From Glaciimonas sp. PAMC28666 (lineage in GTDB: Bacteria; Pseudomonadota; Gammaproteobacteria; Burkholderiales; Burkholderiaceae_D), in assembly GCF_016917355.1 (NCBI RefSeq), contig NZ_CP070304.1:3410001-3474000 (forward strand): 64,000 nt of DNA, in the 5' to 3' direction. Under the pieces are notes generated by a model. That model saw only the letters and a list, made by a program, of their open reading frames with translations, made no database searches and was not told where the DNA came from. The position numbers and the translations under genes were made by a program. How positions within the stretch are numbered: the stretch's first letter is position 1; each line of letters starts with the position of its first letter. Shown piece by piece: positions 4,873 to 33,720 of the stretch.

Positions 4873-5766
4873 TTATCTGAAATTCATCAGGATGGTCAGA
4901 ACAATCGGGAACGCAATGATGATGAAGGTAATGGGAAAAATGAACATGATGAGCGGGGCAATCATTTTCATCGGTGCTTCCATCGCCAGCTTTTCTGCAC
5001 GCTGAAAGCGTTCGGTACGCTTCTGTTCCGAGAATTTGCGCAAAGTCGGCCCGAGCGGAACACCCAGCTTGTCACACTGCAGGACGATACCGACGAAGCG
5101 CTTGATATCCAGATTCCCGGTGCGGCGGGCGAATTTTTCCAGGGCTTCGGCCCGTCCTGCACCGGTCTTCATATCACGCACGACCCGTTCTATTTCCTGG
5201 CGCAAGATGCAGGCTGGACCGCGTTCACAAAAATTAATGATGGCGGTGTTCAAAGTCAGACCACATTCGCAACACAGTGTGACGATATCAACGAAGGACG
5301 GAAAGTAGCGAGATATTTCAAGGTTGCGGCGCTTTTTTTGGTCCTTGATCCACATTAACGGATAGAACCATCCGACGACTCCAAGTACTGAAACTATGTA
5401 GATAACTTTGTAATCGATCCCGAAAGCCCCCAAGCTGACGAAAACACCAAAGAAGAGCGCAACCGCCAGCGAAAAGAACTGGACCGCAAAAGTCTCATTC
5501 GGCGTCATGAAATATTCCAGCCCTGCTGCATTGAGCATCTGCTTGCGCTTAAGCAGCGTAGCTGCGGACAAATAAGCGCCAAAATAAAAATCGAAAAACA
5601 TGACGCCGTTCCATACTTTTTTCAGGAGCGGTGGTAACGGGTCCATGTTTGGCCGAAACTTGTTAACTTTGGCGTTCGCTAATAGCTTAAAGATGTAAAA
5701 CAGAAATACGCTGAGACTGCCGAAGGCCAGTATGATTGCGCTGTATAGATAAATTGAACTGTTCAT
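4873..5766 (-). CDS. tadC: Flp pilus inner-membrane platform protein TadC
   Basis: A 297-residue GspF/T2SSF-family membrane protein. It has an N-terminal membrane segment (YLYSAIILAFGSLSVFLFYIF), two central ones, the conserved cytoplasmic four-helix region (SRYFPSFVDIVTLCCECGLTLNTAI, ERVVRDMKTGAGRAEALEKFARRTG), and a hydrophobic C-terminus (MFIFPITFIIIAFPIVLTIL). The usual partner TadB is immediately upstream, separated by 94 bp. TadB and TadC form the membrane platform on which the TadA ATPase acts. An AAGGGA ribosome binding site precedes the ATG. Confidence 0.92.
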   Translation of the reverse strand: MNSSIYLYSAIILAFGSLSVFLFYIFKLLANAKVNKFRPNMDPLPPLLKKVWNGVMFFDFYFGAYLSAATLLKRKQMLNAAGLEYFMTPNETFAVQFFSLAVALFFGVFVSLGAFGIDYKVIYIVSVLGVVGWFYPLMWIKDQKKRRNLEISRYFPSFVDIVTLCCECGLTLNTAIINFCERGPACILRQEIERVVRDMKTGAGRAEALEKFARRTGNLDIKRFVGIVLQCDKLGVPLGPTLRKFSEQKRTERFQRAEKLAMEAPMKMIAPLIMFIFPITFIIIAFPIVLTILMNFR

Positions 5767-30284: not shown

Positions 30285-31745
30285 ATGAAACCATTCGAAC
30301 CCAATCTTCATGCACTCGCCGTTGCGCGCGACGTTCTGCTCACGCCGTTTGGGCTGGACGAGTCCAGCCTGCAAAAAGCGTTGGCGACCATGTTCACGCA
30401 CAAGGTGGATTATGCTGATCTTTACTTCCAGTTCACCAAAAGTGAGGGCTGGAGTCTGGAAGAGGGCATTGTAAAAACCGGTAGCTTTTCCATTGATCAA
30501 GGTGTCGGCGTGCGTGCGGTCTCTGGCGACAAGACGGCGTTCTCTTATTCAGACGAGATTTCCGAACGGGCGCTTCGCGATGCGGCCATAGCCACTCGTA
30601 CAATTGCGCGTCAGGGAGCCGGTAAAGTAAAAATAGCCAGCGTCATGGAGCAAAAAGGCGGTCGTTCGCTGTATCTGCCCAACGACCCGTTGACCTCGCT
30701 GGACGCCACTGAGAAAGTAAAATTACTCGAACGTGTCGAACGTATCGCCCGCGCCAAAGATCCACGCGTGGTGCAGGTCATGGCGGGACTCGCCGGGGAA
30801 TATGACGTTGTGCTGGTGGCACGTAGCGATGGCGTTATCGCGGCTGATATTCGCCCACTGGTACGCTTGTCAGTGACCGTTATTGCCGAAAAAGATGGTC
30901 GCCGTGAAATGGGCAGCAGCGGCGGCGGCGGTCGTTATAGCTATAGTTATTTTACCGACGCATTGCTTGAAAAATATGCGGCTGAAGCTGTCGCCGCGGC
31001 ACTGGTGAATCTGGACGCTCGTCCGGCACCTGCGGGTCCGATGACCGTGGTGTTGGGTAACGGCTGGCCCGGTATCTTGTTGCACGAAGCGATTGGTCAC
31101 GGCCTTGAAGGCGACTTCAACCGCAAAGGATCCAGTACTTTCTCTGGCCGTATCGGTGAGCGGGTTGCGGCCAAGGGCGTGACGGTGGTTGATGATGGAA
31201 CGCTGGCGGATCGTCGTGGCTCGCTCAACATCGATGATGAAGGCAACCCGACCCAGTGCACCACGCTGATTGAAGACGGTATTCTCAAAGGCTATATCCA
31301 GGACACCATGAATGCGCGCTTGATGAAGATGCCAGTTACCGGCAATGCACGCCGCGAGTCGTTCGCCCATCTTCCTATGCCGCGGATGACTAATACCTAC
31401 ATGCTCGCCGGTGATAAAGACCCGGCTGAGATCTTGGCGTCGGTTAAAAATGGTTTGTATGCAGTCAATTTTGGCGGTGGTCAGGTCGATATCACTAACG
31501 GCAAGTTCGTGTTTTCCGCAAGCGAAGCCTACATGATTGAGAACGGCAAGGTCACTTATCCGGTGAAGGGAGCCACATTGATTGGGAATGGACCTGACGT
31601 GCTGCATCGTGTGTCGATGATTGGCAACGACATGCGTCTTGATCCAGGTGTGGGCGTCTGCGGCAAAGAAGGTCAAAGTGTGCCGGTCGGGGTGGGGCAG
31701 CCAACGCTTCGGATTGACGGCGTGACCGTTGGCGGCACTGCTTGA
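30285..31745 (+). CDS. tldD: Metalloprotease TldD
   Basis: A 486-residue TldD-family protease. The zinc-binding HExxxH motif is in [20 protein letters not shown] (about residues 260-280), and the C-terminal [35 protein letters not shown] is characteristic. With TldE/PmbA it forms a protease that processes modified peptides and CcdA-type antitoxins. Length is standard. The downstream acetyltransferase starts about 20 bp later. Confidence 0.95.
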
Positions 31746-31764
31746 GAGTAAAGGAAGTTTGGTG

Positions 31765-32259
31765 ATGAATGCGGTTGCCGGATCGGGTGCGCTGGAAAAT
31801 ACGTTATCGCTGCAATGGAGCTGGCTTCCGTTTGAGGCCCTAAGTTCGACGCAGATGTATGACCTGCTGGCGTTACGTCAGCAGGTTTTCGTGGTTGAGC
31901 AGGCCTGTGTTTTTCAGGACGCAGACGGTATTGATCGGCACTGCTGGCATGGACTTGGGTATCTAGCCGATGGACATCTGGGGGCTTACGCACGGATTGT
32001 GCCGCCGGGTCGTGTTTATCCTCAGGCATCCATTGGCAGAGTAGTGACAGCACCGACTTTGCGTGGTGTGAACGCCGGTCATGCACTGATGGAACAGGCC
32101 ATGGCGCAAGTCGCATTGCTGTTTCCCGGGCACGACATCAAGATTGGTGCGCAAGCGCATCTGCAGCGATTTTATGGTCGTTACGGCTTCGAGGTATGTG
32201 GTGATGTCTATGATGAGGATGGCATCGACCACGTTCATATGGTCGCCACTAAAGCATGA
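31765..32259 (+). CDS. elaA: ElaA-type GNAT acetyltransferase
   Basis: A 164-residue GNAT-fold protein of the ElaA family. Characteristic segments are LYDLLALRQQVFVVEQ-like (here YDLLALRQQVFVVEQACVFQDADGID), GAYARIVPPG, SIGRVVTAPTLRGVNAGHALMEQAM (acetyl-CoA loop), and AQAHLQRFYGRYGFEVCGDVYDEDGIDHVHM. The substrate is unknown. The ATG at 31765 has AAGGAAG eight bases upstream; a longer frame overlaps the end of tldD and is not preferred. Confidence 0.9.
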   Translation: MNAVAGSGALENTLSLQWSWLPFEALSSTQMYDLLALRQQVFVVEQACVFQDADGIDRHCWHGLGYLADGHLGAYARIVPPGRVYPQASIGRVVTAPTLRGVNAGHALMEQAMAQVALLFPGHDIKIGAQAHLQRFYGRYGFEVCGDVYDEDGIDHVHMVATKA

Positions 32260-32352: not shown

Positions 32353-32381
32353 TTGCTAAATTGTCGAAACTACTGCATTAT
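32353..32381 (+). promoter_or_regulatory. Sigma-70 promoter of the DAHP synthase leader
   Basis: TTGCTA (32353-32358) and CATTAT (32376-32381) are 17 bp apart. The expected start near 32388 lies 27 nt before the leader-peptide ATG. Confidence 0.55.
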
Positions 32382-32414
32382 CTGGCCCAGAGTTCTAACT
32401 AATTACCAGAAGAC

Positions 32415-32495
32415 ATGACTTTTTCAAACGCTTACTTTTATTTTTACTTTAGCTATTCGAGCCCTAAGGCGGTGAAAAGCGGTAAGCGTTCGTAA
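32415..32495 (+). CDS. Phe/Tyr leader peptide of the aroF/aroG attenuator
   Basis: A 26-codon reading frame, ATG to TAA, in the leader of the DAHP synthase gene. Residues 6-14 read AYFYFYFSY; in all four Phe and four Tyr occur in the first 14 codons. Such runs are typical of attenuation leader peptides whose translation senses charged tRNA. A weak AGAAG precedes the ATG. The frame ends 23 nt before the terminator hairpin, and its coding sequence overlaps the competing RNA segments. No longer protein could be encoded here. Confidence 0.8.
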   Translation: MTFSNAYFYFYFSYSSPKAVKSGKRS

Positions 32496-32546
32496 TTAAA
32501 GAACAAACCGAAATTCAAAAAAACCGCCCCTGATGGCGGTTTTTTT
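32427..32546 (+). promoter_or_regulatory. Transcription attenuator controlling DAHP synthase
   Basis: Segment 1 (AACGCTTAC, 32427-32435, at the Phe/Tyr codons) is perfectly complementary to segment 2 (GTAAGCGTT, 32482-32490). Segment 2 also contains GGCGGT (32468-32473) and GCGGT (32479-32483), either of which can pair with ACCGCC (32523-32528), the 5' arm of the terminator. A ribosome stalled on Phe/Tyr codons would mask segment 1 and let the antiterminator form. A ribosome reaching the stop would cover segment 2 and allow termination. Confidence 0.75.
32519..32546 (+). terminator. Attenuator terminator hairpin
   Basis: Stem AAAAACCGCC (32519-32528) / GGCGGTTTTT (32535-32544), loop CCTGAT, with the T-run to 32546. 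It lies between the leader peptide and the DAHP synthase start, only 32 nt upstream of the latter, so it is regulatory rather than the end of the acetyltransferase gene. Confidence 0.9.
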
Positions 32547-32578
32547 ATTCCCAGTCACTTTTTAGCCAGGAGAGAAAA

Positions 32579-33643
32579 ATGCCACGCACCGACGACTTGC
32601 GCATACGAGAAATGAAAGAATTAACGCCACCATCCCATTTGATTCGCGAATTTGGTTGTACCGAAAAAGGTGCCACCACTGCAGCTGATTCGCGCATTGC
32701 GTTGCATCGGATTTTGCACGGACAAGATGACCGTTTGATGGTTGTGATCGGACCTTGTTCGATTCATGACACGAAAGCGGCAATGGAATATGCCCGTCTT
32801 TTGCTTGTCGCACGCGATCGCCTGAAGGGCGAGCTGGAAATTGTCATGCGCGTGTATTTCGAAAAGCCTCGCACCACCGTCGGCTGGAAAGGTTTGATCA
32901 ACGATCCTTACATGGATAACAGTTTCCGCATCAATGACGGTTTGCGCATGGCGCGCGAATTGCTGTTGAATATCAATGAGCTAGGCTTGCCAGCGGGTAC
33001 CGAGTTCCTCGATGTCATCAGCCCGCAATACATTGCGGACCTGATCAGCTGGGGTGCGATTGGTGCTCGTACCACTGAGTCCCAGGTCCATCGTGAGTTG
33101 GCATCCGGTTTGTCGTGCCCGGTCGGCTTCAAGAACGGCACCGATGGTAACGTTAAAATTGCAGTCGATGCGATGAAAGCTGCATCGCAGCCACATCACT
33201 TTCTATCGGTCACCAAGGGCGGCCACTCAGCGATTGTGTCGACCAATGGAAACGAGGATTGCCACATCATTCTGCGCGGTGGTAAAGCGCCGAATTATGA
33301 TGCGGTCAGCGTTGATGCGGCTTGCAAGGACATCGCAGCGAACGGTTTGGCGCAGCGTCTGATGATCGATGCTTCGCATGCGAACAGCTCGAAGAAGCCG
33401 GAGAATCAAATTCCTGTATGTGCCGATATCGCACGTCAGATTGCCGCTGGGGATGATCGTATTGTCGGCGTCATGGTGGAGTCTCATCTGGTCGCAGGAC
33501 GTCAGGATCTGGTCCCGGGCAAGGAATTGACTTACGGTCAATCGGTCACGGACGGTTGCATCAGTTGGGACGAGAGCATTGCCGTGCTGGATGGATTGGC
33601 TGCGGCGGTCAAGCAGCGCCGATTGATAAAAAGCGCGGCGTAA
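32579..33643 (+). CDS. aroG: 3-deoxy-7-phosphoheptulonate synthase (DAHP synthase)
   Basis: A 354-residue type I-alpha DAHP synthase, the first enzyme of aromatic amino acid synthesis (PEP plus erythrose 4-phosphate). Recognised motifs are VVIGPCSIHD, MRVYFEKPRTTVGWKGLINDPYMDNSF, GARTTESQVHRELASG, PVGFKNGTDGN, DASHANSSKKPENQ and VMVESHLVAGRQDL, including the metal-binding Cys, His, Glu and Asp. Which amino acid inhibits it cannot be read safely; the leader peptide suggests expression is tuned by Phe and Tyr. AGGAG precedes the ATG. Confidence 0.95.
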   Translation: MPRTDDLRIREMKELTPPSHLIREFGCTEKGATTAADSRIALHRILHGQDDRLMVVIGPCSIHDTKAAMEYARLLLVARDRLKGELEIVMRVYFEKPRTTVGWKGLINDPYMDNSFRINDGLRMARELLLNINELGLPAGTEFLDVISPQYIADLISWGAIGARTTESQVHRELASGLSCPVGFKNGTDGNVKIAVDAMKAASQPHHFLSVTKGGHSAIVSTNGNEDCHIILRGGKAPNYDAVSVDAACKDIAANGLAQRLMIDASHANSSKKPENQIPVCADIARQIAAGDDRIVGVMVESHLVAGRQDLVPGKELTYGQSVTDGCISWDESIAVLDGLAAAVKQRRLIKSAA

Positions 33644-33683: not shown

Positions 33684-33720
33684 AAAAAAGCCCGTTCAGT
33701 CATCTGAATGGGCTTTTTTA
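33684..33720. terminator. Bidirectional intrinsic terminator
   Basis: A 12-bp stem AAGCCCGTTCAG / CTGAATGGGCTT (one G-U) with a TCAT loop, flanked by A-run and T-run. It serves the DAHP synthase gene (plus) and the aspartic protease gene (minus). Confidence 0.85.

Follow-up and report, generated by a model that had tools for sequence, protein, structure and literature searches.

DAHP synthase (3-deoxy-7-phosphoheptulonate synthase) sets the flow of carbon into Phe, Tyr, Trp and other chorismate products. The enterobacterial ilvGMEDA and thr leaders are multivalent, with several end products read per leader. For aromatic amino acids, the attenuators of E. coli pheA, pheST and trp are classical (PMC11802643), and attenuation has also been reported or proposed for DAHP synthase. 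In C. glutamicum, aroR, with its Phe-Tyr-Phe run, reportedly governs the aroF operon when Phe is limiting (PMC11802643, PMC4046766). The uORFC-13-1 motif before Acholeplasma aroF is a predicted Phe-dependent upstream ORF with a terminator (PMC8632094), attenuators have been predicted for Vibrio aroAIalphaY-tyrA (PMC1173090) and Shewanella aroF (PMC2659441), and an older attenuator proposal for E. coli aroF is cited by both PMC2659441 and PMC8632094. For betaproteobacteria, no report of a DAHP-synthase attenuator was recognised among the matches listed in the literature searched, and the accessible portions of PMC2965389 and PMC3766115 name no such element. A set of 82 short 5' UTRs is given for B. 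cenocepacia (PMC5688073 supplement), and a betaproteobacterial leader may be listed unnamed among them.

Here we analyse a 64-kb stretch of Glaciimonas sp. PAMC28666 DNA (hereafter the window, to which the attenuator coordinates refer), in which a Phe/Tyr-rich leader stands before an aroG-type DAHP synthase gene. A search of Rfam, proposed as a check in the original prediction of an attenuator at this site, gave no hit in the window that reached a gathering score; most of the sub-threshold hits look to us like chance matches to the terminator.

The aroG leader and its control codons

Along the window the order is tldD, a GNAT acetyltransferase gene, a promoter-like pair, the leader ORF, a terminator and the DAHP synthase gene, with the following features:

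30285..31745, tldD, upstream of the leader
31729..32259, GNAT acetyltransferase gene, on the same strand as the leader terminator
32353..32381, + strand, sigma-70-type leader promoter, TTGCTA / 17 nt / CATTAT (sequence and motif conservation)
32415..32495, + strand, leader peptide ORF of 26 codons plus TAA, MTFSNAYFYFYFSYSSPKAVKSGKRS (sequence; homologous leaders in relatives)
32427..32435, + strand, 5' arm of the outer protector stem, AACGCTTAC, nine perfect pairs with 32482-32490
32433..32456, + strand, control codons YFYFYFSY (Tyr, Phe), the densest Phe/Tyr run of the window
32452..32480, + strand, inner protector hairpin, holding the GGC of the antiterminator word (minimum-energy fold)
32468..32476, + strand, antiterminator 5' strand (region 2), GGCGGTGAA (GGCGG conservation; computed pairing)
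32482..32490, + strand, 3' arm of the outer protector stem, GTAAGCGTT, exact complement of AACGCTTAC
32514..32528, + strand, antiterminator 3' strand, TTC...ACCGCC, of which 32517-32528 is the terminator 5' arm (region 3)
32517..32546, + strand, intrinsic terminator, 12-bp stem plus T-run (regions 3 and 4; sequence and fold)
32579..33643, + strand, aroG-type DAHP synthase, the gene proposed to be regulated
33684..33719, + strand, likely terminator 3' of aroG (inverted repeat plus T-run, read by eye, no score)

The original prediction had described a promoter, a 26-codon peptide with four Phe and four Tyr in its first 14 codons, a protector stem, alternative pairing segments and a terminator whose T-run ends 32 nt before the gene, all in the order required for ribosome-mediated attenuation. 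Each of these parts was read in the sequence where it had been placed; the peptide lies at 32415-32495, and the T-run of the terminator, which separates leader from structural gene, ends 32 nt before the aroG ATG (32579). The product of 32579..33643 passes the NCBIfam AroG equivalog model (587.7 bits, cut-off 568), and the solved structures closest to it are chains of Phe-regulated DAHP synthase. Given the likely terminator at 33684..33719, the attenuator probably serves aroG alone.

The four Phe and four Tyr of the leader fall inside codons 3-14, and in six frames of the 64 kb only four stop-free 10-codon windows reach seven Phe/Tyr, each of them within the leader. The peptide had no Pfam or NCBIfam match, and its Shine-Dalgarno sequence is weak by eye. 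For a codon alignment, 79 sequences (the window and 78 others) were anchored on GGCGGT; 14 were set aside because they lacked the word or had it in a different frame, as were another 4 among the remaining 65, which were anchored on the terminator. In the resulting 61 leaders, the three positions that close the FYF run hold, in turn, Phe in 60, Tyr in 53 (Trp in 7, His in 1) and Phe in 61.

The Phe codons of this run (32442-32444 and 32448-32450 in the window) are TTT in 60/61 and 61/61 aligned leaders; that is, TTT is used at both positions wherever they encode Phe, and the Tyr codon alternates between TAC and TAT. The preference includes Massilia, whose genomes are GC-rich; slow decoding and low structure are candidate explanations.

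Across 48 diverse leaders, collected by a finder that required at least four aromatic residues per 10 codons (all 20 model-derived loci passed it), Phe codons occur in 48/48, Tyr codons in 44/48 and Trp codons in 26/48. The leaders therefore carry a codon run for the end products of the DAHP synthase pathway, and their composition suggests that a single leader may sense Phe, Tyr and Trp alike. Trp codons stand mostly in or next to the Phe/Tyr run, as in FYFW and FFW, and are also seen in Paraburkholderia and Massilia leaders.

Pairing between the leader and the terminator

As a whole, the 175-nt leader and terminator fold better than shuffled sequences (z -3.9; 0/200 shuffles as good). Most of this signal is contributed by the terminator (z -4.2, 1/200), and the leader cut before the terminator 3' arm shows no advantage over shuffled sequences (z -0.5, 57/200). 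RNAalifold on 43 sequences likewise recovers the terminator only, we think because the protector differs between lineages.

Two segments that could pair alternatively with the terminator 5' arm had been predicted, and they are found as GGCGGT at 32468-32473 and GCGGT at 32479-32483. When the RNA that would be free under a stall (32457-32528) was folded, GGCGGUGAA (32468-32476) paired with UUC at 32514-32516 and ACCGCC at 32523-32528 (-16.7 kcal/mol, z -2.2, 4/200 shuffles as good). With the whole window leader free, the computed pairing of the GGCGG word with the terminator arm was only 0.03. With a ribosome modelled on the final control codon, computed antiterminator pairing was 0.96-1.0 in 22/22 evaluable leaders; the footprint assumed at that codon overlaps GGCGG in 5/27. 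Within these pairing computations, release of the antiterminator by a stall is thus predicted to be general. For untranslated RNA, computed pairing was at least 0.5 in 12/27 leaders and below 0.5 in 15/27, so that either lineages differ in how their untranslated RNA behaves or equilibrium folding does not capture this.

The GGCGG word is conserved to a degree that the encoded peptide does not account for. It lies between leader start and terminator in 79/79 aligned sequences (frame 2 in 74, frame 0 in 4, frame 1 in 1), near the leader stop in 46/48 diverse leaders (frame 2 in 34, frame 1 in 5, frame 0 in 7), and in 26/28 leaders that were found without the covariance model described below. As its frame varies, the encoded residues differ (AVE, LAEG, GGR, RRR). 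When the leaders were recoded synonymously, using codons sampled from their own pool, the word survived in about 0.34 of draws (mean over 27 representatives) against 27/29 observed. The flank changes together with the terminator. In 31/46 leaders the base 5' of GGCGG pairs with the base 3' of the terminator CCGCC (T-A 19, C-G 11, T-G 1), and the contiguous antiterminator extension averages 1.67 against 1.16 when permuted (0/5000 permutations as high). When each of the 15 families was represented by a single member, p averaged 0.013; in the window antiterminator the loop-side extension is 0. Compensatory changes, which the original prediction had named as a check on the stems, are thus found in the antiterminator, between families. 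That GGCGG persists in all three frames, with covariation between its flank and the terminator arm, places the constraint on RNA pairing. Conservation, covariation and the fold of 32457-32528 all point to antiterminator pairing with the terminator 5' arm, and this pairing of the leader GGCGG is the essential conserved part of the device.

A further helix is only suggestive. The purine run 3' of GGCGG often complements a pyrimidine run right before the terminator, and the duplex of a leader with its own spacer reaches -7.84 against -6.23 with spacers of other families (permutation fractions 0.023 for energy and 0.10 for helix score). Between leader stop and terminator, the spacer (32496-32516) holds a AACCGAATTCC-like motif that is kept in many relatives and may extend the antiterminator.

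The protector hairpins are the least supported part of the attenuator. In the window fold with the whole leader free, the inner hairpin nests inside the outer 9-bp stem. The perfect protector stem of the original prediction is exact in the window and is otherwise lineage-specific: over 43 sequences, 8-9 of its 9 pairs form in 5 and at least 7 in 10, and 58.1% of its cells are paired, little above the 55.9% of one slid control. Judged on the same 43 sequences, the inner hairpin at about 32452-32480 is better kept than the outer stem, with 87.6% of cells paired against at most 66.0% in slid controls, 7-8 of its 8 pairs kept in 36, and both partners of one pair replaced in 6 sequences. Against synonymous recoding, the protector gave a mean z of -0.39, with z below -1 in 5/29 leaders.

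Taken as a ribosome-mediated transcription attenuator of the classical trp/phe/his type, the device would very probably tune aroG to how much charged tRNA-Phe and tRNA-Tyr is available. Transcription would start at about 32388, with a ribosome following RNA polymerase on the leader. With ample Phe and Tyr, the ribosome would reach the stop codon at 32493-32495 and cover or block GGCGGT (32468-32473), the terminator (32517-32546) would form, and transcription would end. If Phe or Tyr were short, the ribosome would stall in the YFYFYFSY run, so that the protector hairpins open and GGCGGT is free; the free word would pair with ACCGCC (32523-32528), no terminator would form, and aroG would be transcribed.

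The leader RNA or peptide might instead act mainly in trans, as described for peTrpL of Sinorhizobium, with attenuation secondary. An attenuator leader peptide can indeed act in trans (PMC7298713), and short 5' UTR RNAs are reported as abundant in Burkholderia cenocepacia (PMC5688073). However, outside the aromatic run and the GGCGG codons the peptides diverge between families, and the frame of GGCGG shifts, which makes a main role in trans very improbable in our view; the leader may still have some role in trans alongside attenuation.

Distribution, gene linkage and promoter conservation

As close relatives we took the best 80 among the DAHP-synthase loci listed from GTDB genomes, a set headed by Collimonas (91% protein identity) in which most loci belong to Oxalobacteraceae genera, which places the window in that family. 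A leader with at least five Phe/Tyr per 10 codons stands in 78 of these 80 loci and the matching terminator in the same 78, one of them differing by a G-U pair; the leader stop precedes the terminator in 77/78. The conserved Phe/Tyr run that the original prediction called for is therefore borne out, in close relatives as well as in the wider Burkholderiales set. In Candidatus Burkholderia humilis (L065), the leader frame reads FYFYFLLASQ and, unlike its relatives, continues through the terminator; attenuation may be altered or lost there. The only two of the best 80 loci without the device (L024 and L061) have the gene directly behind a tldD-like end.

The tldD gene often neighbours DAHP synthase. 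In these two leaderless loci and in four more (L101, L103, L104 and L107), a TldD-like frame ends shortly before the gene. With the gene directly behind tldD-like frames in all six, the attenuator may have been lost there.

Within Burkholderiales, DAHP synthase was found in 91/120 genomes (1e-60), and 110 upstream regions were examined out of 118 listed DAHP-synthase places. The finder identified leader plus terminator in 28/110, from 13 families, and 82/110 were without; two looser matches were also listed (L171 and L181). A covariance model of 39 sequences was then run on 200 Burkholderiales genomes. Matches of at least 49 bits were obtained in 46/200, one per genome and from 14 families, by a model that was trained on such leaders and on GGCGG and so favours both. 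Gene linkage was not part of the model, and 46/46 strong matches precede a DAHP synthase gene on its own strand, within about 150 nt of it (41 linked by tblastn, 4 from the DAHP-synthase and upstream survey, and 1 being the window). Nine genomes had matches of at most 41 bits only; four were inspected and none was near DAHP synthase. The large genome searches used stricter filters, with which weak matches are lost. Among 274 genomes drawn from the class there were five matches at 1e-5, namely the window, two more Burkholderiales genomes and two genomes from elsewhere in the class. The latter two come from one family (f63), are also upstream of DAHP synthase, and have leaders reading FYFWYYF and FYRWYYF. 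These sequence searches place the attenuator device in 14 families of the Burkholderiales and in one family of another order.

In its own genome the window site scores 93.6 bits and the next match 34.7 bits. There are 19 such weaker matches, and the four that were viewed (L194, L195, L196 and L198) look like terminators near other genes, with no DAHP synthase in the stretch; a weak match in the window at 5561-5611 lies inside a 297-codon ORF. Of the four FYFYF runs in this genome, one is this leader, one is in a 328-codon frame and two are in short frames (L251 and L252). The short frames were rejected as further sites, as no such terminator was seen by eye. One of them (L251, 1715350-1715364 of the genome, minus strand) is a short RFYFYF frame directly before a gene whose product starts MIVVIGSINMDLVMRVPRMPHPGETLSGGQFQ.

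The leader promoter is a weak match when taken alone. Its -35-like TTGCTA (32353-32358) and -10-like CATTAT (32376-32381), 17 nt apart, agree with the consensus at 8/12 positions, and a generic promoter scan of the window left it below threshold. Position and motif are kept in relatives, as befits the promoter predicted before the leader: TTGCCA occurs in 56/78 and TATAGT in 44/78 sequences (the window and 77 relatives), and the mean best-site score is 8.9, against 5.9 in 212 stretches lying 300-580 nt farther upstream, whose composition was unmatched. Two Paraburkholderia loci (L060 and L070) are without the motif. The leader is thus a short ORF that has its own promoter and precedes a structural gene, the promoter being judged by sequence conservation alone.

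Control of aroG could also be exerted at this promoter by a TyrR- or TrpR-like repressor, with a small effect of the leader. E. coli pathway genes, including DAHP synthase genes, are under TyrR and TrpR, yet the same source states, at survey level, that both regulators are absent outside gammaproteobacteria (PMC5343134). Promoter control would, moreover, need no Phe/Tyr/Trp leader matched to a terminator, and we consider a repressor in the main role slightly less probable again than action in trans, though some promoter control may operate in addition. The least probable reading, which we all but discard, is that the terminator merely ends upstream tldD-GNAT transcription and the small ORF is a chance frame: the hairpin does sit behind the same-strand GNAT gene, and four leaderless upstream regions elsewhere (L125, L128, L133 and L139) have terminators that by eye resemble the ends of upstream genes, but a conserved promoter separates the GNAT gene from the leader, leader and terminator co-occur before DAHP synthase in 14 families at variable distance to the gene, and the GGCGG complementarity is kept.

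Comparison with described attenuators

Ribosome-mediated attenuation of aroG had been put forward as possibly new. This holds in part: attenuation of DAHP synthase is known from C. glutamicum aroR, and it is the family in this lineage that appears undescribed in the literature searched. Whether the leaders form one old, undescribed family of DAHP-synthase attenuators, found in no fewer than 14 families of Burkholderiales and in another order and integrating Phe and Tyr, with Trp in about half, seems to us evenly balanced. If they do, one leader would control the entry enzyme of the pathway by reading each of its end products, Phe, Tyr and Trp, and how one ribosome-sensing leader weighs three amino acids would become directly testable in the Phe/Tyr/Trp leaders. 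Such leaders would then belong to a lineage in which a survey reports TyrR and TrpR to be absent (PMC5343134), and the family would be a main candidate for aromatic control without these regulators in Burkholderiales. It would also be a further RNA family, one that goes undetected by Rfam in the window, and offer a simple target for the engineering of aromatic production.

Among Rfam families the top resemblance is to Phe_leader (RF01859), which we take to be the pheA leader; at 31.6 bits against a gathering score of 55, the threshold is not reached. Phe leader, stem and terminator come in the same order in both, and the leaders described here differ in also having Tyr and Trp codons. The multivalent ilvGMEDA and thr leaders concern other amino acids and other genes. 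The remaining systems were likened to the window leader by description, in aroR by description alone. C. glutamicum aroR shares a Phe-Tyr-Phe leader peptide before DAHP synthase, with transcription reported to rise under Phe limitation (PMC11802643, PMC4046766); it differs in coming from an actinobacterium, in having FYF where the window leader has eight Phe/Tyr, and in that Tyr is reported to be without effect there. The uORFC-13-1 motif shares a predicted upstream ORF and terminator before DAHP synthase, but is described for Acholeplasma and environmental sequences only, with at least one Phe codon in its consensus (PMC8632094). In Vibrio (PMC1173090) and Shewanella (PMC2659441), attenuation has likewise been proposed for proteobacterial DAHP-synthase operons; these cases are predictions from other lineages and concern a Tyr-type enzyme, together with tyrA in Vibrio, whereas the window leader precedes an aroG-type gene and reads, as proposed here, both Phe and Tyr.
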